Of a DNA stretch of 36,834 nucleotides, positions 13,489-35,526 are shown piece after piece. This stretch comes from Fidelibacterota bacterium (GTDB lineage Bacteria > Fidelibacterota > Marinisomatia > SCGC-AAA003-L08 > D37C17), in contig PBGO01000033.1 in assembly GCA_002719095.1 (NCBI GenBank), positions 1 to 36,834 of the forward strand, given 5' to 3'. The translations under genes were made by a program, and so were the position numbers. Under the pieces are notes generated by a model. The model saw nothing but the letters and a program-made list of their open reading frames with translations, searched no databases and was not told where the DNA came from. Every line of letters starts with the position of its first letter. Positions within the stretch are counted from its first letter, which is position 1.

Positions 13489-13887
13489 TTATCTTTTAGA
13501 AAACTGAAACTTCTTTCGAGCACCAGGTTGACCGTACTTCTTTCTCTCGACCTCTCTTGAGTCTCTAGTTAACATACCTTCTTTTTTTAGTAGTGTTCTT
13601 AAATCTGAATCGATCATCTGTAACCCTCTGGCAATAGCCAATCTTATAGCACCAGCTTGCCCAGTTTGACCACCTCCTTCAACATTGACAATAATATCAT
13701 ATTTCTTTAAAGAGTTGGTTAACTCAAGAGGTTGTTTGATAATCATTTTAGAAGTATCCCTAGAAAAATAAACATCTATATCTTTTTCATTAATTGTAAT
13801 GGCTCCCTTTCCAGGATAAAAATAAGCTCTAGCAATAGATTCTTTACGTCTTCCAATAGCATGAGTTTCATGTAATTTTTTATTCAT
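13489..13887 (-). CDS. rpsI: 30S ribosomal protein S9
   Basis: The 132-residue protein has the S9 signature GGGQTGQAGAIRLAIARGL (about 74-92), then LTRDSREVERKKYGQPGARK and the conserved C-terminal SKR that reaches the P-site tRNA. The N-terminus HAIGRRKESIARAYF is also typical. Its ATG overlaps the end of rplM by 8 bp. Ribosomal protein S9 is almost always paired with L13, as here. Confidence 0.97.
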   Translation of the reverse strand: MNKKLHETHAIGRRKESIARAYFYPGKGAITINEKDIDVYFSRDTSKMIIKQPLELTNSLKKYDIIVNVEGGGQTGQAGAIRLAIARGLQMIDSDLRTLLKKEGMLTRDSREVERKKYGQPGARKKFQFSKR

Positions 13888-14314
13888 TTATATCTAGCAC
13901 CTTTGGATTTTGACTTGAATGTGGGTGAGATGGACCAGAATAGACCTTAAGATGATTAAATAATTTTCTTCCTAATCTGTTGTGCGGAAGCATTCCTTTG
14001 ACAGCTGAATTTATAATTCTCTCAGGATGTTTTTCTTTCAAAGATTTGTATGAAGCTACTTTTTGACCACCTGGATATCCTGTATGGTGCCAATATTCTT
14101 TTTGTTCACTTTTGTTACCAGATATGATAACTTTATCTGCATTGATAACAATAACAAAGTCTCCCATATCAAGATTCGGTGTAAAGAACGGCTTGTGCTT
14201 TCCTCTAATTACTTGTGCAACATTACTTGCGAGTCTTCCTAGTTTTTTCCCCGTAGCATCTACGACAAACCAGTTTCGTTTTATTTGATTTTCTTTAATT
14301 GATAGTGTTTTCAT
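13880..14314 (-). CDS. rplM: 50S ribosomal protein L13
   Basis: The 144-residue protein shows the L13 signature: WFVVDATGKKLGRLASNVA (15-33), IRGKHKPFFTPNLDMGDFV, the GYPGGQK motif, and AVKGMLPHNRLGRK. It binds 23S rRNA early in assembly. The 68-bp spacer to the end of the pyrC-like gene holds a possible weak promoter (TTGTGT about 15 bases before TATAAG), too poor to annotate alone, so read-through from the pyr genes is possible. Confidence 0.97.
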   Translation of the reverse strand: MKTLSIKENQIKRNWFVVDATGKKLGRLASNVAQVIRGKHKPFFTPNLDMGDFVIVINADKVIISGNKSEQKEYWHHTGYPGGQKVASYKSLKEKHPERIINSAVKGMLPHNRLGRKLFNHLKVYSGPSHPHSSQNPKVLDINE

Positions 14315-14382: not shown

Positions 14383-15675
14383 TTAATCAAATGAGTGAAT
14401 TTTATTTTTACAAAGAACATATTTTATTTTTCCTTTCATACTTTTACCTATCATTGGTGAATTCTTAGATTTTGAAAAAATATTTTCTTCTTTAAATACC
14501 CATTTTTCATTTGTATCAATAACATTAAAATTAGCAGGTCGGCCAGCTTTTATTGAATCTAGCTCTAGATTATATACTTTAGATGGATTTAATGTAAATA
14601 AACCTAGAATTTCTTCAATTTTAAAATTATTCTCGCTTAAAATTTTATTACAAAAAGGAAATGCAGACTCTAATCCAATAACACCATGCTTAGAATTTAA
14701 TAAATCAGACTCTTTAGATTCTGATGCTCGAGGGAAATGATCAGAAACAATACAATCAATCGTACCATCTCTCAATCCTTCAATCAAACCTAAGCTGTCT
14801 TTTTCGGATCTTAAAGGAGGCGAAATTTTAAACACTGCATCAAAATCTACAAACTCTTCCTGATTCAAACCCAAATGATTAGGAGATACATCAGCAGATA
14901 TCTTAGAATACTTATTTTTAAAAAACTTAATTAAATCTACTGATTTTTCAGAACTGACATTAGGTATATGAATTCTTCCACCAACATATTTTGCTATCTC
15001 AATATTTTGATAAATTGCTATAGTTTCGGATATATAAGGATTTGCGGGAAGACCCATTTCTGTTGAAAATTTACTCTCATGCGTAAAACCATTGCTTGAT
15101 AAATCATAATCTTCAGTATGATTAAAATACGGAATGTTAAACATACTGGTATACTCCAGAACATTTCTAATTAGTTGGGTATTTTTAAGAATTTTGTGTG
15201 CGTCAGAAATGGCAACAACACCTTTTTTGGACATTAGGCCGATTTCGCTGATCTCTGTGCCATTTAGATTTTTTGTTGCGGCCCCAATTAATTCAATATT
15301 AATTAAAGATTCTTTAATTCTATTTTTCATGTAACAAACTAAATCTAGAGAATCTATACACGGATTTGTATCGGGTAGCATGCATATGCGTGTATAGCCA
15401 CCAGCCAAAGCTGCTCGAGAAACACTACAGATTGATTCAATGTCTTCATTGCCTGGCTCACCTAAATGAGTACGCAAATCAATAAATCCAGGAGATATAA
15501 CAAAACTTGAGCAATCTATAGTTTCTATGTCAGATGAATCTCCTTGATAATTCATATCTTTAATATCACCATCAATGATTAATAAGCTGGCTCTTTTGAT
15601 TTTCTTGGATTCAGGATGATACACTTTTGCATTCTTGAGCAAATATTTATCTAGCTTGTTCGAAATTAAAGACAC
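14383..15675 (-). CDS. Dihydroorotase-like protein (PyrC'/PyrX type), probably non-catalytic
   Basis: The 430-residue protein is a type I dihydroorotase homologue by length, order of motifs and position after pyrB. Key residues differ. The DxHxHxR zinc motif reads D66-L-R68-T-H70-L-G72, so the first His is Arg and the substrate Arg is Gly. The PNT motif reads P101-D-T, so the substrate Asn is Asp. The H-V-S zinc His is N239. H186 (NHTED), D158 and D312 remain. This matches the pseudo-dihydroorotases known beside ATCase in pseudomonads, which hold PyrB in its active complex without catalysis. An active enzyme would then be encoded elsewhere. The start is GTG at 15675, six bases after a perfect GGAGGTGA inside the end of pyrB. 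Confidence 0.85.
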   Translation of the reverse strand: MSLISNKLDKYLLKNAKVYHPESKKIKRASLLIIDGDIKDMNYQGDSSDIETIDCSSFVISPGFIDLRTHLGEPGNEDIESICSVSRAALAGGYTRICMLPDTNPCIDSLDLVCYMKNRIKESLINIELIGAATKNLNGTEISEIGLMSKKGVVAISDAHKILKNTQLIRNVLEYTSMFNIPYFNHTEDYDLSSNGFTHESKFSTEMGLPANPYISETIAIYQNIEIAKYVGGRIHIPNVSSEKSVDLIKFFKNKYSKISADVSPNHLGLNQEEFVDFDAVFKISPPLRSEKDSLGLIEGLRDGTIDCIVSDHFPRASESKESDLLNSKHGVIGLESAFPFCNKILSENNFKIEEILGLFTLNPSKVYNLELDSIKAGRPANFNVIDTNEKWVFKEENIFSKSKNSPMIGKSMKGKIKYVLCKNKIHSFD

Positions 15676-16602
15676 TTACTCACCTCCTCCCAACAATAAA
15701 TATAAAACACTCATTCTAACTGCAACTCCATTTAATACCTGATTCAAAATAATTGAATTTGGTCCATCAGCAACACAACTACTCACTTCAACTCCTCTAT
15801 TGATCGGCCCCGGATGCAATATTGTAATATCTTTATTATACTTATTTATTAAACTACTAGTAATTCCAAATAAGGACCTATATTCTCTAGTTGATGGGAT
15901 AATGCCTATACCCATTCTTTCTCTCTGGATACGTAAAACATTCAGAGCATCTGCCCATTTAACTGTATCCTTAATATCGTGAGAAACCTCTACTCCAAGA
16001 CTCTCAATACGTGCAGGTATTAAATTTGAAGGTCCGCAGACCCTAACTTTTGCACCTAATTTTGTTAGTCCATAAATGTTTGATCTAGCAACTCTGCTGT
16101 GGAGAATATCTCCAATAATTCCTACTTTCAAGTTTTTTATACTTTTAAACTTTTCTTTTAAACTCATAATATCAAGTAATGCTTGCGTTGGGTGTTCGTG
16201 AAAACCATCGCCACCATTAATTATTGAAGCGTCAACATAATTTGTGAGATTGATGCATGAGCCTGGAGATGAATGCCTAATTATTATGCAATCAATCTTC
16301 ATAGAATGTATATTCTGCACTGTATCTTTAAAACTTTCACCTTTATTCAAGCTTGATGTGCCTTTTGAAAAACTGGTCACATCAGCAGATAATCGTTTAG
16401 CTGCTAAATCAAAGGACATTTTTGTTCTAGTAGAATTTTCAAAAAAAAGACTCAAAACATTTTTACCTTTTAATGAAGGAACTTTTTTGATTGGACGATC
16501 TAAAACTTCTCTAAACTTAAAGGCAGTTTGAAGTATTTTCTCAATATCATTCTTGGGAGTGTTTTGAAGACCGAACAAGTGTTTTATCGAAATGAGGCTC
16601 AT
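15676..16602 (-). CDS. pyrB: Aspartate carbamoyltransferase catalytic subunit
   Basis: The 308-residue protein joins carbamoyl phosphate and aspartate, the first committed step of pyrimidine synthesis. Carbamoyl-phosphate site STRT is at 57-60 (FFENSTRTKMSFDLAAKR), with K87 in SSLNKGES and HPTQ at 137-140. Aspartate-side motifs are VLRIQRERM and LHPGPINRGVEV. No regulatory pyrI is seen; control by PyrR and association with the PyrC-like protein are more likely. Its ATG overlaps the pyrR stop (ATGA), and its last codons (GGA GGA GGT GAG) double as the ribosome binding site of the next gene. Confidence 0.95.
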   Translation of the reverse strand: MSLISIKHLFGLQNTPKNDIEKILQTAFKFREVLDRPIKKVPSLKGKNVLSLFFENSTRTKMSFDLAAKRLSADVTSFSKGTSSLNKGESFKDTVQNIHSMKIDCIIIRHSSPGSCINLTNYVDASIINGGDGFHEHPTQALLDIMSLKEKFKSIKNLKVGIIGDILHSRVARSNIYGLTKLGAKVRVCGPSNLIPARIESLGVEVSHDIKDTVKWADALNVLRIQRERMGIGIIPSTREYRSLFGITSSLINKYNKDITILHPGPINRGVEVSSCVADGPNSIILNQVLNGVAVRMSVLYLLLGGGE

Positions 16603-17135
16603 TTATTTACCATAGCAATTTCGTCTTTTCCATCAAATTCAAGCATATTTACGGTTATATGCTGTTCAATTTTAGTAGGATAATTTTTACCAACAAAATC
16701 TGGTCTAATTGGTAATTCTCTGTGACCTCTATCAACTAAAACAGCAAGCTTGATTGACTTTGGTCTTCCAAATGAAAAAATTTCCTCAATCGCAGCTCTA
16801 ATTGTTCTACCGCTATGAAGAACATCATCAATAAGAATGATATTTTTATCAGTTAAATCATAGGGAATTACAGATGGACCTAATTTAGGTGCTAAAAATT
16901 TATTTGAAAAATCATCTCTGTGAAAAGTAATATCAATAGTACCCATTGGAGTATCAAAATTTAGAATTTTATCAATGTTTTTTTTAATTCTTGCTGATAA
17001 AAATTCACCTCTAGTTTTGATTCCAATCAAAATGAAATCTTGATGATTTTCTGATGATTCGACAATCTCATTTGAAATACGAAAAACCATTTTATTCACA
17101 TCTTCTTGATTGGCTAATATATGTTTATTTTTCAT
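16599..17135 (-). CDS. pyrR: PyrR, pyrimidine operon RNA-binding regulator / uracil phosphoribosyltransferase
   Basis: The 178-residue type I phosphoribosyltransferase has the PRPP loop LIDDVLHSGRT at 101-111 and the early motif ILIGIKTRGEFLSARI (35-50). PyrR proteins bind the pyr mRNA leader in response to UMP/UTP and also convert uracil plus PRPP to UMP. Gene order pyrR-pyrB-pyrC is the classic autoregulated arrangement. A leader with a matching hairpin lies directly upstream (17152-17202). No Shine-Dalgarno is visible before the ATG, only ATAAATTTTAATAATT. Confidence 0.93.
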   Translation of the reverse strand: MKNKHILANQEDVNKMVFRISNEIVESSENHQDFILIGIKTRGEFLSARIKKNIDKILNFDTPMGTIDITFHRDDFSNKFLAPKLGPSVIPYDLTDKNIILIDDVLHSGRTIRAAIEEIFSFGRPKSIKLAVLVDRGHRELPIRPDFVGKNYPTKIEQHITVNMLEFDGKDEIAMVNK

Positions 17136-17274: not shown

Positions 17275-18378
17275 ATGTACATTCTTCATTCATATATAAT
17301 TAAAAGCTTTATCTCAAAATTTTTAAGTATAATTTTTGGATTTATCCTTCTATTTCTCATAATTGACATAATAGGTAATATTGATAAATTTCTTGAGTCT
17401 AATCTTACGCAAAAAGAAATTTTTTATTTTTCATTATTATCTATACCAAGTTTTATAAGCTTTGCTTTGCCAATGTCTACTCTTCTTGCATGTATGTTTT
17501 CAATTGGGCAATTGCAAAAAAATCATGAACTAACTGCTATAAAATCATGTGGTGTAAGCCTGAAAAGTATATCAATAAGTCTAATAATTATTGGTTCGAT
17601 AATAAGTTTTTGTTCATTTTTATTTGATAATACAATTGTAACAAAATCTTTAACTAAAAAAGAAATAATAAATAAAAAACTTTCAAGGAATTATAATAAA
17701 TCAAATCAAAATCTAAGACATTCGCATATTATCTACGATAAAGGTGTAAAAAAGATAATGAGTATTGAGAATTATCAATTTTCATCTGGACTGGCTACAA
17801 ATGTTGTAATTCAAGAATTTGAAAAACAATCAAATCAATTATCGCATAAAATGTTAGAAAATTTAAAAATTGATTCAATGATCTTCATTTACAAAGAAAA
17901 AAAATGGCACAGAAAAGGAATTTCAAGAAGAAATATTAATGATAATATGATTTCAACTTTACTTAGTAATGATACAATATTCTTCCTTAATGAAGATGAA
18001 TCTTTTTTTACTGAGAAAGATCTTAACGATCTATTACCTGATTCAGATCAATTGAACTATTGGGAGTTAAAACAAATTTCGTTAAAAAGGCCTGAACAGC
18101 ATGAAATTGAAGTTGACTACAATTTTAAAGTTGCTTTTAGCTTTACTAGCATAATTATGATTTTTTTTGGAATTGGTCTATCTATTAGAAATCCCAGAGA
18201 TGCATCTACAGCTGGTATTGGTCTAGGTATAATTACAATATTTCTTTATTACATTGGTATAAAAATTGGTCAATCTATGGGCTATAGCCAAACACTTACA
18301 CCATTTTATTCTGTTTGGACAATTAATATAATTTTTCTATCTGTTGGTGGATGGCTCTTTTCAAGAATACGAACTTAG
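17275..18378 (+). CDS. LptF/LptG family LPS-export permease
   Basis: The 367-residue protein has the YjgP/YjgQ layout: three N-terminal membrane helices (about 12-35, 50-80, 98-122), a periplasmic beta domain (about 125-285) and three C-terminal helices from 286 on. It starts MYILHSYIIKSFISKF, typical of the family, and contains LPMSTLLACMFSIGQLQKNHELTAIKSCGVS, the cytoplasmic coupling-helix region that contacts the ATPase LptB. It would form one half of the inner-membrane LptBFG transporter that extracts lipopolysaccharide. LptF and LptG cannot be told apart here. It shares its upstream region with divergent pyrR and overlaps the next stop by four bases. Confidence 0.85.
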   Translation: MYILHSYIIKSFISKFLSIIFGFILLFLIIDIIGNIDKFLESNLTQKEIFYFSLLSIPSFISFALPMSTLLACMFSIGQLQKNHELTAIKSCGVSLKSISISLIIIGSIISFCSFLFDNTIVTKSLTKKEIINKKLSRNYNKSNQNLRHSHIIYDKGVKKIMSIENYQFSSGLATNVVIQEFEKQSNQLSHKMLENLKIDSMIFIYKEKKWHRKGISRRNINDNMISTLLSNDTIFFLNEDESFFTEKDLNDLLPDSDQLNYWELKQISLKRPEQHEIEVDYNFKVAFSFTSIIMIFFGIGLSIRNPRDASTAGIGLGIITIFLYYIGIKIGQSMGYSQTLTPFYSVWTINIIFLSVGGWLFSRIRT

Positions 18379-19976
18379 TTTTTTTTCTCAAATCTAAATA
18401 CATTTATAATATTTGAAAAAAAATCTTTTAATCTCTTTAAAAAAATATTTTCTTCATCATTAGATTCAACATAATCATAGAAAAAATTTAATGCTACATC
18501 AACTCCTCTCGCTCGGCTTGATTTAAAACTTCCTATGTAAGCATATCCAAAATCAAGTTTTAAATTACCAAAAGAATAACCTGAACCGATGCAAAATCTA
18601 TACCTATCGTCTCCGCCCAACGTTGTTCCGATTCTTATGGGTATTTTTGGATTTTTATTTATTTCTGTTCCAATAGATACTTTCCATTTTTCTTCGTTTG
18701 TAAAAGTTTGATCAAGTCCAGTTGAAATATCAAATGCTACAAGCATATCTTCTTCATAAAAGTTTTTAGAAGCACCAAATCTTAATAGTGTTGGGTAGTC
18801 AGTTTTAAAAGGGATAGAATTAAAAAGATTCATTTCTGAATCAATTAAATTATCTGTGGGGACGACAACTCTACCATCATCTAGGAGCAAAATCTTATCA
18901 GATTCTATTTTTGCTTCATTTGAGGATTGGATTTGACTTGTTTGATCGGACGAATCAATGAAAAATAACGGTAATTCCGATTGATCTATTCCTGCAACAT
19001 TTATGATAGGGATATCATTAAAATTTAAAATAGATACCCTATATGTATCAGTGACAAACATGTCCTCTGGTGTAGAAGTTAATAATTGTTGAGCATTCAG
19101 GCTGTCAACCCTAAAATTAAAGAAAAAATATTCTTTTTCTCGAACTGGAAATTCTACCCCTATAGATTCAAATCCATTTCTTAATGCGGTATTCTTATTC
19201 CATTGCATGCTTGAAAAAGCATTAATTAATGAGGCTCCAATTTTAATACCATTTTCAAACTCTTTTGTTGAAAAACCAAAATCTAAACCATAGCCAAACC
19301 CTCCAAGACCTTGCTTTATTAAATAATTACCACTCCCTAAAAAAGCAGTTGTATCTGTTTTGAAAAAAGCGTTACCAAGCTGCTCCATATTTGAATAATA
19401 AATACCTTGTAAAATTTTAGCTGAAATTCCGACGTTGAATTCTTCAAATTTTTTGCAATAACTAAACCCAGTTTCAAATGTTGCTATTGAGTTCTGAGTA
19501 AATGCCATATCTAACTCTTTACCAACTTCATTCCCAAAAAAAAATATGTCAACGAAAGCTTGAGGAAACTTAATTTCCCCATAAAGAAAGATATTGGATG
19601 TGAAAGCATAATTATTCTTTGAAAAATTTAGACCGGGTATGGAATTTATTGAATTAAATTTCAATTTCACACCTTCACCTTTTAAAATATTTTTTATGTT
19701 ATTTTTTGGATAATAACTTGAAGCGAGCGGATTATCAAAATGAGCTCCATTAATCTGATTATATCGTTCAATTGTCAAGAAATTATTTGAAAAAGAGGAC
19801 GAGGAGGAGAATGCATTTGCTGTCCAATCTGTTCCTGTGTTAATATTTGCAGGGTTTATTCCAACTGCTCTGTAACCATTTGATAATGTTGTATATGCAC
19901 CTCCCAAACCAAGCATGCGAGCATCATTATAATTTTGCGATACTAAAATTGACATTATAATGAAAAAAAATATCAT
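18375..19976 (-). CDS. Outer-membrane beta-barrel protein (DUF5723/PorV-like)
   Basis: The 533-residue protein has a signal segment (MIFFFIIMSILVSQ). ARMLGLGGAYTTLSNGYRAV and GINPANI follow, the plug-like N-terminus seen in PorV/UPF0164/DUF5723 barrels. The rest shows alternating strands ending in aromatic residues, such as GLGGFGYGLDFGFST and FRFCIGSGYSFGNLKLDFGYAY, consistent with about 14 strands. A region near 340-390 (SSDQTSQIQSSNEAKIESDK) is polar and could be an external loop. The ATG overlaps the stop of the large lipoprotein gene (ATGA), so the two are translationally coupled and may act together at the outer membrane. The exact function is unknown. Confidence 0.7.
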   Translation of the reverse strand: MIFFFIIMSILVSQNYNDARMLGLGGAYTTLSNGYRAVGINPANINTGTDWTANAFSSSSSFSNNFLTIERYNQINGAHFDNPLASSYYPKNNIKNILKGEGVKLKFNSINSIPGLNFSKNNYAFTSNIFLYGEIKFPQAFVDIFFFGNEVGKELDMAFTQNSIATFETGFSYCKKFEEFNVGISAKILQGIYYSNMEQLGNAFFKTDTTAFLGSGNYLIKQGLGGFGYGLDFGFSTKEFENGIKIGASLINAFSSMQWNKNTALRNGFESIGVEFPVREKEYFFFNFRVDSLNAQQLLTSTPEDMFVTDTYRVSILNFNDIPIINVAGIDQSELPLFFIDSSDQTSQIQSSNEAKIESDKILLLDDGRVVVPTDNLIDSEMNLFNSIPFKTDYPTLLRFGASKNFYEEDMLVAFDISTGLDQTFTNEEKWKVSIGTEINKNPKIPIRIGTTLGGDDRYRFCIGSGYSFGNLKLDFGYAYIGSFKSSRARGVDVALNFFYDYVESNDEENIFLKRLKDFFSNIINVFRFEKKN

Positions 19977-22900
19977 TTTAAGTTATCTGATTGCTTCTGC
20001 TCCTCAACAACTATTTTTTTACTTTGATTAGAGGTTACCCCTGTATCTAGCACTAATGTAAGAAATGATCTTACACCTAGATAATTTGTAGTTTGAAGTG
20101 AGCTTGGATTGCCTTCAGTGCTTGCAAGTGTAATCATTGGTACCATGTATCTTTGCTCTTTAGCAGTAAACCATGAAACGCGATTTGCATCCAGAACCTC
20201 TGATGAAAATGATATACTGGGAGTACTTACAAATCCATTCTGGTCAAGTAACTCAGGCTCTATAAACGACACATCAATTATTCTACCAATCCAAAATAAA
20301 ACTGAGTCTTGACCATTTACATCGTTTTTCATGAATTCAACATAATAAGCTCTGTTGTCTTCATTATTAATTTGTTGAAAGTCAACAGAATCAACACCAA
20401 GATCAGAAAGAGAATCACTATAATTAAGCCAGGTAAAGCTATTATTTTCGCAAGATAATTGATCTTCATAATTACTGTTTGAGCATCTGGTATTTAAATT
20501 TTTCAAATTATCTAAATAAAGAGGAAATATCGTGCTATCAGAAATTAACATAGACATTGATATCCCAAATGGAGAAGAATTAGTGAACTCAGCATTAAAT
20601 ACTGCCTCAACAAGTGAATTATTAATTTGATTTGAAACCTCTTCGTCCATTGCTTCTAAATTTGAAATATCTTTTGGAATGAAAACCCAATTTTCATTAA
20701 AGACAAAAGCAAGTGGTGCTCTAATAGAAAACTCACCCCAGAGATTATCGTTTTCTCTGAGAGTTCCTTCTCCATCAATAAGAACAGAGCCAACCATATT
20801 CATTTGATTAGGACCAAAATAAATAAAATCTAGTAAACTAACATTCTCTTCGCCATCAAAAGGTACCGTTATTACCTCATAAGGATTTTCATCTAGCTCA
20901 GAACAATAATACTTTGTTGTTTGACTATCTTTATTAATTTCTATTTCAGTTATAGCAATATCACCTACCTGATAATTGCAAATATTTTCTTGTGTTCTGT
21001 TTGGAGAGTCAAGAACAATTTCGAAAGGAAAATTTTTAGATTCTATACTTTCATCATCAAAACAATCTGCTGTTGAAAATCCATTTGGACATTTTTTACC
21101 GGTCAAATTAAAAGTTGCATTAACTGTATTAATTGTAATTTGATTATAAATTTTCATATCCATAAAAATATCATACAACTTAAAATCATCAAAACCATTT
21201 GGAATATCTTGAAGAGGAACAGATTGAGCCTGTGGAAAGTCTATTTGTTCAGTTATTGCAGAAATAGATTTTAACTTAATATTTGAAACTTCTGCTTGAT
21301 ATCCAGTTTCTCCAATTGAAAGAATATTGTTAGTTAAAGGAATTCTATATTCTCCATTTTCGATCATGAAATCATAGTTAATTTCAATATTTTCTAAGCT
21401 GGTACCTAATTCTTTACTTCCAATAATTTTATTACTCAAATTAAAAGTATCGAGATAATTACTTTGTGATGGTATAGTAATTTTTTCAGAATATAAAATA
21501 TCTTCATCATATATGTTTGAAAAGTCCAAATTAAGTTCTGCAGAACCAAAGAAGCCATTATCAACATTAAGTATAAATTGATTTGAATATAAGGTCTCTT
21601 GATTTTGATATATTTGATCCTGTTCACCAAAATCTCCAGTCGATTCAATACCATCTATACCATAATCGTCAAATTGTGTTCCATCATCAATTAACGCTTC
21701 CCTAACTTCAATTTGATCAAATGAAGGAAAATCAACTAAGATTGGATCCGTCTGCGGAGTATCATTAATTTCTAAATTAACTACCAGAGTATCTAGTAAT
21801 AATTCACCACTAAGGCTAAATGTGATTTCATCATCTTGGATGTTCCAGCCATCTAAATTTTCAGCTAAACATGGATTACAACCTGAAGCTAAACACTCAT
21901 CATTTGATGAGAACTGTGATGGATTAGTACTATCGTCATCATCAATTACGGCTGAATCTGTTGTACAAACATAAACTGAACCATTGTAACATGGATCACA
22001 CTGATTTAGGCATTCAGATTGAGATTGATAAATAGTAATTGAATCTGGTATTCCATCGCCGTCAAGATCTTCTTCATTTATATTTCCATTATCATCAATT
22101 GCATCTGATGAGCATGCATGGATGGGTTCTAAAAAGCATGGATTACATGAATCTATACATTCTTGAGAAGAATTATATGTTTGTATGAGATTTGTATCTA
22201 AATTACCGTTTGAATCAAGAGCGTCTGTAAGGCAAGCAAAAAGACTTACACTCACGCAATCTAAAAAACAATTATTTGAACAATTAGATTCTTGATCATA
22301 AACATTACTATCTACTGGGCAAACATAAGTGTTTTGCTGTAAGCATGGAGAACATGAATTTTCACATAAATTTTGAGAATTGGACCCTTGGTATGTTGTA
22401 GGCTCTCCAGTAATGTTACCTGTGGAATCTACAGCATCTGCTACACAGACTGCAAGACTGAAATCCAAGCAAGCATTGCAGTTAGAACCACAATCTGTTT
22501 GAGCATCGATACCTTGATAAATTGTAGGTTCTCCAGAAATATTTCCATCACTATCAATTGCATCAGCAGCACAGACGTATAACTGTTCACCAAAACAAGG
22601 ATCGCAATTACTTGAACAATCATTGTTGTCATTAAAGATAGTAAAATTATTATCATTAATTATTATTTCACCTGTATTTTCGTTTATTGATAAAGCATCA
22701 GAAACGCATATATTTAATGAACATTGATCTTGTGGAATTTGTTCAGAGTCTACCTGAATACTTATTTCTGCAAATAATGAGCTTTCAAGAGATAGTTCAT
22801 AAGATTCGAATTGGACATTACCATTAACTGTTGTGTACGGAGCAATACTTGAAATGGTTAAAGAAGTGAATTTATTATTATCGATGATAGCACCTTTGAA

Positions 22901-23746
22901 AATATTAAATTCTAAATTATCTACAGTAAAAGGAAGTCCATTTCTAAACTCAATCTCCCACAACATAGATTCATCAAGAATAATTTTTTCAATTGATATT
23001 GAACCCAAATCACCGAGATCTATTCCATCTGTATTAATCGATAATGGCACTTCAACAACAATTGGTTCATTTATTTGCTCTGTTGCTAGGGAAATAGGGT
23101 CCGGAAAATTGCCTAAATCAAAAGGGATAGATAAGCTTTGTTCATTATCAGGAAGAAAATCAGAACATGATTGGAAAATATTATTAATAAATTCATTGTC
23201 TGATTCAGGAATTTCAATATTGACTGGAATATTTGTAGGTTCAAATAACGGACTAGGTAAATTCTCTCCCAAATCATAGGTAGAAGACTCTTGAATTACT
23301 TGAGGATCAATGGCAATGTCAGATAAATCTAATTTAAAAAATTGAAGGTCTAGCTGCTGTTCAACTTTGTTTAGTCCAATTGAATCTAAACTGCTGTCAA
23401 ACTCCATTTGAATCATATTTTCAAGTGAATCTGTTGTTCCAAATGTATCCCATTCTCCATTTGAATTTTCATCAATATAATTCTCACCTAAATCATATTG
23501 GCCGTTACCTTGTGTACCATCTAAATCAATAATTTCGCAATCATTATCGATACCGCAATCGTCATACTGTTCAGCTGAAGTTGTTATAATACCGTCTTGC
23601 AATATACCCTCAAAGCCATATTCTGTATCAATAAGTGGAACAGTTAGCGGTAGGTACCAAGCAGGTGTTTCAGGCTCTTCTGGAAGTTTCAATTCACATG
23701 AAAAGAAAAAAATAGCAAATAATGCAATTAATCTTTTTACATTCAT
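19973..23746 (-). CDS. Large lipoprotein with seven Cys-rich repeats
   Basis: This 1257-residue protein begins with a lipoprotein signal (MNVKRLIALFAIFFFSC, lipid Cys 17). Residues 61-100 hold calcium-loop-like NGQYDLGENYIDENSNGEWD. Residues 120-340 and 640-1230 look like beta-rich extracellular domains. Residues 342-626 are seven tandem repeats of about 25-45 residues with the pattern VC..DA.DS.GN....TY......C...C.PC. No enzyme motif was recognised. The C-terminal part (about 1220-1230) reads YLGVRSFLTLVLDTGV. It follows ahcY with no gap and overlaps the barrel gene by four bases. It is likely surface-exposed and may partner the barrel. Confidence 0.75.
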   Translation of the reverse strand: MNVKRLIALFAIFFFSCELKLPEEPETPAWYLPLTVPLIDTEYGFEGILQDGIITTSAEQYDDCGIDNDCEIIDLDGTQGNGQYDLGENYIDENSNGEWDTFGTTDSLENMIQMEFDSSLDSIGLNKVEQQLDLQFFKLDLSDIAIDPQVIQESSTYDLGENLPSPLFEPTNIPVNIEIPESDNEFINNIFQSCSDFLPDNEQSLSIPFDLGNFPDPISLATEQINEPIVVEVPLSINTDGIDLGDLGSISIEKIILDESMLWEIEFRNGLPFTVDNLEFNIFKGAIIDNNKFTSLTISSIAPYTTVNGNVQFESYELSLESSLFAEISIQVDSEQIPQDQCSLNICVSDALSINENTGEIIINDNNFTIFNDNNDCSSNCDPCFGEQLYVCAADAIDSDGNISGEPTIYQGIDAQTDCGSNCNACLDFSLAVCVADAVDSTGNITGEPTTYQGSNSQNLCENSCSPCLQQNTYVCPVDSNVYDQESNCSNNCFLDCVSVSLFACLTDALDSNGNLDTNLIQTYNSSQECIDSCNPCFLEPIHACSSDAIDDNGNINEEDLDGDGIPDSITIYQSQSECLNQCDPCYNGSVYVCTTDSAVIDDDDSTNPSQFSSNDECLASGCNPCLAENLDGWNIQDDEITFSLSGELLLDTLVVNLEINDTPQTDPILVDFPSFDQIEVREALIDDGTQFDDYGIDGIESTGDFGEQDQIYQNQETLYSNQFILNVDNGFFGSAELNLDFSNIYDEDILYSEKITIPSQSNYLDTFNLSNKIIGSKELGTSLENIEINYDFMIENGEYRIPLTNNILSIGETGYQAEVSNIKLKSISAITEQIDFPQAQSVPLQDIPNGFDDFKLYDIFMDMKIYNQITINTVNATFNLTGKKCPNGFSTADCFDDESIESKNFPFEIVLDSPNRTQENICNYQVGDIAITEIEINKDSQTTKYYCSELDENPYEVITVPFDGEENVSLLDFIYFGPNQMNMVGSVLIDGEGTLRENDNLWGEFSIRAPLAFVFNENWVFIPKDISNLEAMDEEVSNQINNSLVEAVFNAEFTNSSPFGISMSMLISDSTIFPLYLDNLKNLNTRCSNSNYEDQLSCENNSFTWLNYSDSLSDLGVDSVDFQQINNEDNRAYYVEFMKNDVNGQDSVLFWIGRIIDVSFIEPELLDQNGFVSTPSISFSSEVLDANRVSWFTAKEQRYMVPMITLASTEGNPSSLQTTNYLGVRSFLTLVLDTGVTSNQSKKIVVEEQKQSDNLK
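21869..22723 (-). repeat. Seven Cys-rich protein repeats inside the lipoprotein gene
   Basis: Repeat units by protein residue: 342-384, 389-426, 431-468, 473-497, 502-537, 542-586 and 591-626. Units 2 and 3 are the most alike (VCAADAIDSDGNISGEPTIY against VCVADAVDSTGNITGEPTTY). Unit 4 is shortened and unit 6 carries an extra acidic insertion (EEDLDGDGIPDS). Each has about four Cys with a closing C-x-x-x-C-x-x-C or similar, suggesting disulfides within units. The layout (VC..D...TY....C...C) recalls Kazal-like modules, but this is speculative. Confidence 0.7.
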
Positions 23747-34404: not shown

Positions 34405-35526
34405 TTAACTAATTATTAAATTGACTAACACAACTACATCAACAATGTTGAGAAACCCATCATCATTCATGTCTGAAGCTTGTATTTCTTGAAAAGATGG
34501 CGTACTCAATTGAAGTATAAAGTTTACTAACATAACTGTGTCTAAAATATTTATTGAATCATCTTGATTTACGTCCCCAATTGTTACTTCAGGACAAACA
34601 ATATCATATAAAAAGCTGCTAGTGTAATCAGCTTCAAATTCCATATCAGAATAGGGACCATGACCCTCATTTTCGTAGGTATATAACGCACTGTAGTTCC
34701 CTAATTCCTGCATTTTTTCATGAATGATATAACTTCCATCAACTTCAATATTTAACCCAAATAGAGTCACTAAATCATTTGCATATGGAACGACATCATC
34801 TTCATCACCGTGCATGCTAACAATAGGGATATCATCATCTACAAGCCAATCTGAATCACCTATTGCTCCAGATAAATTAACAACACCATTTATAGTTGAA
34901 TCATAACCAGGGTTTCCGGATAGCCCCTCAAAACCTCCATTTGAGTTAAAATAATTAATTAGGAACGTAGGAACCTCAGATTGTTCATTTAAATAAGCTG
35001 AATTAATCGATGTGAATGCACCAGCAGAATATCCGCCGACAAAAATACGATTTGAATCAATATTGTAATCATTAAAAAGTTCATCGTTCATTCTAAAATA
35101 GCGTATTGCAGCCTTCAAGTCGTGAGTTGCTTTCATGACTGCTATATATCCATTGAGTTCAGTTGGATTTGTAAATAAAAGATGCTGAGATAGTCTGTAG
35201 TCTATAGCAACAGCAACATATCCCATCTGAGCATACTTATTGCAAAGGCTCACAACTAGATTAGAACTTTTCGAACCTTCAACAAATGAACCTCCAAAAA
35301 GGAAGAAAATTAAAGGTCTATCATCTAAGCTATCTTCAGCTGGATAATAAATATCCATATACAAATTTTGAGTGTATTCAGATCCAGATATTGTTTGATT
35401 GGTGTTTTGTCCATAGAGTACTTGATAATCGGTTGCTACATCAAATATATAATCAGTGTATCGATCTCCCGAACAATCATTTTGAGCAACTAAAAAACCT
35501 AAGAAAATGTAAATAAATTTTAGCAT
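34405..35526 (-). CDS. Secreted alpha/beta-hydrolase (esterase) with C-terminal dockerin
   Basis: The 373-residue protein has a signal peptide (MLKFIYIFLGFLVAQ). The hydrolase domain (about 25-310) has oxyanion motif FLFGGSFVEGS (75-85), nucleophile S167 in GYSAG, acid D243 in HGDEDDVVP and H289 in ENEGHG, the BD-FAE/carboxylesterase plan. Residues 316-372 are a type I dockerin-like duplication: GDVNQDDSINILDTVMLVNFIL and DMNDDGFLNIVDVVVLVNLI, with Ca2+-loop aspartates. No type-A sorting domain follows. The substrate could be an acylated polysaccharide, but that is inference. It is separated from its neighbours by 94 bp and 81 bp. Confidence 0.82.
   Translation of the reverse strand: MLKFIYIFLGFLVAQNDCSGDRYTDYIFDVATDYQVLYGQNTNQTISGSEYTQNLYMDIYYPAEDSLDDRPLIFFLFGGSFVEGSKSSNLVVSLCNKYAQMGYVAVAIDYRLSQHLLFTNPTELNGYIAVMKATHDLKAAIRYFRMNDELFNDYNIDSNRIFVGGYSAGAFTSINSAYLNEQSEVPTFLINYFNSNGGFEGLSGNPGYDSTINGVVNLSGAIGDSDWLVDDDIPIVSMHGDEDDVVPYANDLVTLFGLNIEVDGSYIIHEKMQELGNYSALYTYENEGHGPYSDMEFEADYTSSFLYDIVCPEVTIGDVNQDDSINILDTVMLVNFILQLSTPSFQEIQASDMNDDGFLNIVDVVVLVNLIIS

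Follow-up and report, generated by a model that had tools for sequence, protein, structure and literature searches.

The gene that follows pyrB in the window (the 36,834-nucleotide stretch of DNA analysed here) encodes a PyrC-type dihydroorotase in which most of the catalytic residues have been replaced. In pyrimidine synthesis PyrB catalyses the second step and dihydroorotase the third. The explanation that best accounts for the data, and one that we consider very likely, is that its product is a class A2 pseudo-dihydroorotase (PyrX or PyrC') which scaffolds PyrB, while the chemistry is done by a second dihydroorotase. The scaffolding role is suggested by the adjacency to pyrB, purifying selection, the lack of PyrI in the family, the contrast with a distant family of the same phylum and published precedent. 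Those features of a class A2 system that can be tested by sequence are all present in the window genome, and PyrB binding and catalytic inactivity are predicted.

The pyrB–pyrC locus

The 430-aa open reading frame of the PyrC-type protein starts with GTG, which is separated from pyrB by a single TAA, and a strong Shine-Dalgarno sequence (GGAGGAGGTGAG) is placed within the end of pyrB. The protein scored 297 bits against the NCBIfam model TIGR00857 (cut-off 279). The alignment with Aquifex PyrC that the first-pass annotation had proposed as a check was performed; the Aquifex aeolicus dihydroorotase matched the window protein end to end (residues 10–425, 33% identity), and the catalytic losses were confirmed. 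Profile, alignment and fold thus all indicate full-length homology to a type I dihydroorotase. The neighbouring PyrB is complete, and its active-site motifs STRT, HPTQ, LRIQRER and HPGPINRG are readable in the translation. The coordinates of all features are listed in Table 1.

The gene order in the window is pyrR-pyrB-pyrC-rplM-rpsI-rpsB-tsf, with pyrH further on. The slot from pyrR to rpsB is found in the window genome (G000), in three relatives with a degenerate PyrC (G002, G013 and G018) and in intact relatives. Since nearly all relatives examined have the same pyrR-pyrB-pyrC-ribosomal order, whether their PyrC is intact or degenerate, it is the ancestral orthologue that has degenerated here, not an extra copy. 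The draft assembly of the window genome amounts to 1.46 Mb, with 90% completeness and 5% contamination.

Elsewhere in the window, two adjacent long open reading frames on the minus strand (18375–19976 and 19973–23746; 533 and 1257 aa) had no hit in Pfam or NCBIfam under the thresholds applied, and a predicted esterase-like protein at 34405–35526 (minus strand) has a dockerin type I domain at its C-terminus.

Table 1. Position and identification of the pyr cluster genes and of the replaced catalytic residues in the window
Feature	Position	Strand	Basis
Degenerate PyrC-type (type I, class IIa) dihydroorotase, proposed PyrX/PyrC' pseudo-dihydroorotase, 430 aa	14383..15675	-	TIGR00857, 3d6n_A match
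pyrB, aspartate carbamoyltransferase catalytic chain, 308 aa, proposed partner	15676..16602	-	NF002032, 378 bits (cut-off 263)
pyrR, pyr operon regulator / uracil phosphoribosyltransferase, first gene of the cluster	16599..17135	-	NF003549, 204 bits (cut-off 138)
rplM; with rpsI, rpsB and tsf marks the conserved slot	13880..14314	-	Synteny across relatives
First metal motif D66-L-R68-T-H70-L-G72, replacing DxHxHxR	15460..15480	-	H68 and R72 invariant in 49 intact relatives
D102, replacing Asn of PNT (Aquifex N95)	15370..15372	-	Alignment
A159, replacing zinc-ligand Asp (Aquifex D153)	15199..15201	-	Alignment; PMC3880350
N239, replacing beta-site His (Aquifex H232)	14959..14961	-	Alignment; Aquifex H232A active
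R316, replacing His of TDHAPH (Aquifex H309)	14728..14730	-	Alignment

Loss of catalytic residues

The first-pass annotation had described a PyrC homologue without key catalytic residues. This was confirmed, and the loss is deeper than described: compared with 49 intact relatives, six of the nine active-site residues are replaced (H68R, R72G, N102D, D159A, H239N and H316R). From Aquifex to the window protein the changes are H61 to R68, R65 to G72, N95 to D102, D153 to A159, H232 to N239 and H309 to R316, and the residues retained are H63 (H70), H180 (H186) and D305 (D312). Two of the three alpha-zinc ligands are gone (H68R and D159A); where an active type I dihydroorotase, the partner in class A1 ATCase, has HxH and an Asp, the window protein has R68, H70 and A159. 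Aquifex R65, N95 and H309 are presumably the substrate-binding residues (CAD R1475, N1505 and H1690). Zinc-ligand and substrate residues are therefore both absent, including the equivalents of H61 and D153, as in a class A2 pseudo-dihydroorotase.

The earlier reading of the motifs D66-L-R-T-H-L-G72 and P101-D-T agrees with the translation and the alignment, and H186 and D312 are retained as it stated; D158, however, which it took for a retained zinc ligand, is a neighbouring Asp that is not a ligand. In the Aquifex enzyme, the ligand D153 adjoins G154 (PMC3880350) and the sequence there is T151-D152-D153-G154, so that the ligand column of the window protein is A159. D159A and H316R were missing from the earlier list of losses. 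N239 had been read correctly in place of the H-V-S histidine, but it is weak as a sign of catalytic loss and not diagnostic alone, because the Aquifex H232A mutant, like H180A, keeps full activity (PMC3880350); the single catalytic zinc of that enzyme is bound by H61 and D153 (PMC3880350).

The 49 intact relatives, all of the same class, gave 62 columns at least 98% conserved, nine of them catalytic and 53 other. With the nine catalytic columns picked from the literature after the finding had been seen, 6/9 catalytic columns were changed in the window protein vs 14/53 of the others (p 0.025), and 7/9 in each of the degenerate orthologues of G002, G013 and G018 (p 0.0001–0.001); none was changed in any intact relative. 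R72, H239 and G160 are gone in all degenerate orthologues, and otherwise the sets of lost residues vary by lineage.

That the window protein is still a dihydroorotase, working with an altered metal site of H70, H186 and D312, seems to us highly improbable. It is true that these three residues are retained in a predicted fold that is intact, and that the Aquifex enzyme tolerates the loss of H180 or H232, but the alpha site is gone together with R72, N102 and H316, substrate binders in the family. The orthologues also miss different subsets of the remaining residues (H186 in G002; H70 and D312 in G018), as expected of a disused site, and a complete second enzyme is present in the genome. A lack of dihydroorotase activity in the window protein is what we infer from its residues.

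It is unlikely that the protein has taken up another reaction or that its old active site now binds another ligand, such as a regulatory nucleotide, whether or not the protein also binds PyrB. Charged residues (R68, D102 and R316) do stand in for the catalytic set, and nucleotides inhibit the class A2 complex of P. aeruginosa, although this inhibition is held to be a destabilisation of the complex and not the work of an allosteric site (PMC7053772); moreover, the replacements vary by lineage and reveal no new motif in common. Equally doubtful is the more specific proposal that residues such as R68, D102 and R316 now form an effector-binding site which regulates PyrB activity. If true, it would mean that the gain of a foreign dihydroorotase made an enzyme subunit a regulator.

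Predicted fold and selection

The window protein is predicted to fold confidently as a dihydroorotase (AlphaFold model, pLDDT 90.5, pTM 0.92). The best Foldseek match of the model was the Aquifex subunit from the ATCase complex (3d6n_A, TM 0.92); the free latent form ranked lower (1xrf, TM 0.78). The resemblance to the ATCase-bound over the free form is only suggestive, as the predictor was probably trained on both structures.

The frame is open (430–441 aa) in all four genomes with a degenerate PyrC, which belong to three genera. Between the degenerate proteins of G013 and G018, from one genus, pS was 0.56 and pN 0.25; the resulting pN/pS of 0.46 is rough, with pS close to saturation, though well below 1. 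The PyrC:PyrB divergence ratio of this pair was 3.1, within the range of intact pairs (1.96–3.29), and its PyrC is still under purifying selection. The non-catalytic invariant residues are mostly retained. A functionless, decaying pseudogene that stays in the pyr cluster by chance would agree with the raised divergence (38–42% identity to intact family members, compared with at least 49% among the intact members), but the long open frames, the pN/pS value and divergence ratio, the retained invariant residues and the good Shine-Dalgarno sequence coupled to pyrB all speak against it, and we regard it as very unlikely. The analysis as a whole indicates that the window protein has probably been kept as a structural partner for PyrB.

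A second dihydroorotase in the genome

The first-pass annotation expected an active dihydroorotase encoded elsewhere in the genome, and a candidate was found, although the intact HxH motif proposed for the search reads QVH in it. This gene (G000:C13:8309-9622; L001:1501-2814) encodes a 438-aa dihydroorotase of another class, scoring 601 bits with PRK07575 (cut-off 529) and 529 bits with PRK09060 (cut-off 482). Q-V-H-F-R replaces HxHxR, and the protein has a Lys, both later His, the Asp and DHAPH. By sequence, the structures closest to it are P. gingivalis 2gwn, an L-hydantoinase and the M. jannaschii dihydroorotase 7uof. The tetranucleotide profile of the contig agrees with that of the window (r 0.993). 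A search of the window genome for a type II dihydroorotase found none, and one dihydroorotate dehydrogenase is present.

In SAR324 and Poseidoniales genomes, the QVH class was the sole dihydroorotase found in a search with TIGR00857 and TIGR00856, and enzymes of this class are therefore very probably active. The presence of the C13 gene thus provides the separately encoded dihydroorotase of a class A2 system, with its activity deduced from these relatives. The replacement of the first metal His by Gln (QVHFR) was also seen in SAR324, Poseidoniales and most of the planctomycete and cyanobacterial enzymes compared, a sample that leans to QVH because the patterns of the collection scan contained it. 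As the QVHFR enzyme is often the only intact dihydroorotase, either this class can do without the first His or Gln serves as a ligand in its stead.

Distribution within the phylum

The family of the window comprises 23 genomes, and the pyrBC slot was assembled in 19 of them, 15 with an intact and four with a degenerate PyrC; the degenerate PyrC adjoins pyrB in all four. The second-class enzyme was found in 3/4 genomes with a degenerate PyrC vs 0/15 with an intact one (p 0.004, kinship ignored), and the family's own second-class enzymes form one clade (100/99). The exception, G018, has a degenerate PyrC and no second dihydroorotase was found in its genome, which is 72% complete; it shares a genus with G013 and G008, and both of these have the second-class enzyme. 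On a tree of neighbour genes, decay of PyrC inside the family needs three changes, and a single clade was not clearly rejected (p-AU 0.05). When the genome collection was scanned with only the window protein as query, no relative was found.

Several candidates were set aside. The second-class enzyme also occurs in G007 and G008, assemblies without PyrB and PyrC; the missing PyrC was not taken as evidence of loss, as PyrB is equally absent there. Three apparent counter-examples lie on probable foreign contigs: a second pyrB with an intact pyrC (G013:C26), whose gene cluster is placed among other families of the class (100/98); a degenerate PyrC away from pyrB (G014:C27, L308), with a BatA-domain neighbour; and a PRK09236-like enzyme (G020:C29, L062), with DUF4296 and hemD as neighbours. 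By this gene content, the latter two contigs resemble Bacteroidota.

PyrI (PF01948) was matched in none of 19 genomes of the window family (the window genome and 18 members), while the positive control, family f30, gave 6/6. No class B ATCase (PyrB with PyrI) was therefore recognised in the window genome. The distant family f30 of the same phylum (18 genomes) has a separately placed second-class enzyme alongside pyrB-pyrI (6/6 tested), and no PyrC was found in any of its 18 genomes. The f30 pyrB (G255, G251, G259, G246, G252 and G240) is about 34% identical to that of the window, with pyrI directly after it, and the ATCase of f30 differs in type from that of the window family. The window family keeps a dead PyrC and lacks PyrI, whereas f30 has PyrI and no PyrC. 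PyrC thus seems to be retained in its dead form when PyrB is left with no alternative partner, and to be missing when PyrI is there, but two lineages compared in this way do not amount to proof.

Genomes outside the phylum

Sixteen genomes outside the phylum were chosen for carrying the second-class enzyme, and no intact PyrC-type protein was found in them. Three planctomycetes have a degenerate PyrC adjoining pyrB and two cyanobacteria have a degenerate PyrC; the others are without PyrC. The PyrC-type proteins of the cyanobacteria (L187:324-1634 and L188:1498-2907) and planctomycetes (L184–L186) also miss catalytic residues, for example with LYSHSGEP at the first motif and with PNT changed to PDT, and all five genomes carry an enzyme of the PRK07575/PRK09060/PRK09236 class. 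The L187 protein scores above the cut-off of NCBIfam PRK07369 and would be annotated as a dihydroorotase.

Proposed course of events and meaning

The order of events that we infer is gain of the second enzyme followed by loss of the PyrC active site. A dihydroorotase of another class (PRK07575/PRK09060, QVHFR) would have entered the lineage and taken over the step from carbamoyl aspartate to dihydroorotate, and PyrC, the ancestral occupant of the slot beside pyrB, would then have been free to lose its active site, though not its fold. The dead subunit would have been kept as PyrB needs a structural partner.

Once the probable foreign contigs are set aside, no sampled genome combines an enzyme of the PRK07575/PRK09060 class with a PyrC whose catalytic residues are intact. 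This suggests a rule, open to testing, by which dead proteins among the annotated 'dihydroorotases' could be predicted; NCBIfam models such as PRK07369 call both members of such pairs dihydroorotase. The arrangement itself is already known and it is the window lineage that is new to it; a literature search gave no report of a dead pyrB-linked dihydroorotase in Marinimicrobia. The uncultured marine phylum SAR406 (Neomarinimicrobiota) would thus join the lineages in which PyrB has a former dihydroorotase as a non-catalytic partner, and this one phylum offers three states: intact PyrC without a second enzyme, dead PyrC with a second enzyme, and a second enzyme with PyrI and without PyrC.

Comparison with known systems

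Class A2 aspartate transcarbamoylase is a dodecamer in which two PyrB trimers are held by three pseudo-dihydroorotase dimers. In P. aeruginosa, PyrB without the pseudo-dihydroorotase is an inactive monomer, and the two together form a 457 kDa complex (PMC7053772); the statement in the first-pass annotation that an inactive PyrC' beside ATCase keeps PyrB in its complex in pseudomonads agrees with this precedent, and its reading of the window gene is supported in substance. Like Pseudomonas PyrX/PyrC', the window protein has the size of a dihydroorotase, lacks the catalytic residues and is encoded beside pyrB, with another dihydroorotase, presumed active, elsewhere. Unlike it, the window gene belongs to another phylum and has pyrR upstream and its own pattern of lost residues, and the inactivity and PyrB binding of its product are predictions. 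The window PyrB also reads without a long N-terminal extension, in contrast to the 11 residues in P. aeruginosa.

In S. meliloti, disruption of smc01361, which lies beside pyrB, caused pyrimidine auxotrophy despite an essential PyrC encoded elsewhere, and its product (PyrX) was proposed to be an inactive subunit required for PyrB (PMC5929573). The window gene likewise adjoins pyrB in a genome with a separate dihydroorotase, a case that is read from sequence where the S. meliloti one comes from a mutant. The closest solved structure, by both sequence and fold, is the class A1 dihydroorotase-ATCase of Aquifex aeolicus (3d6n_A). The Aquifex subunit shows activity in its complex with ATCase, unlike what is predicted for the window protein, and of its H61, H63, R65, N95, D153 and H309 only H63 is retained in the window protein. 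The pseudo-dihydroorotase domain of fungal URA2/CAD is similar in having a dihydroorotase fold without zinc ligands that is kept with ATCase, but it is part of a fused eukaryotic polypeptide and represents an independent case (PMC7053772).
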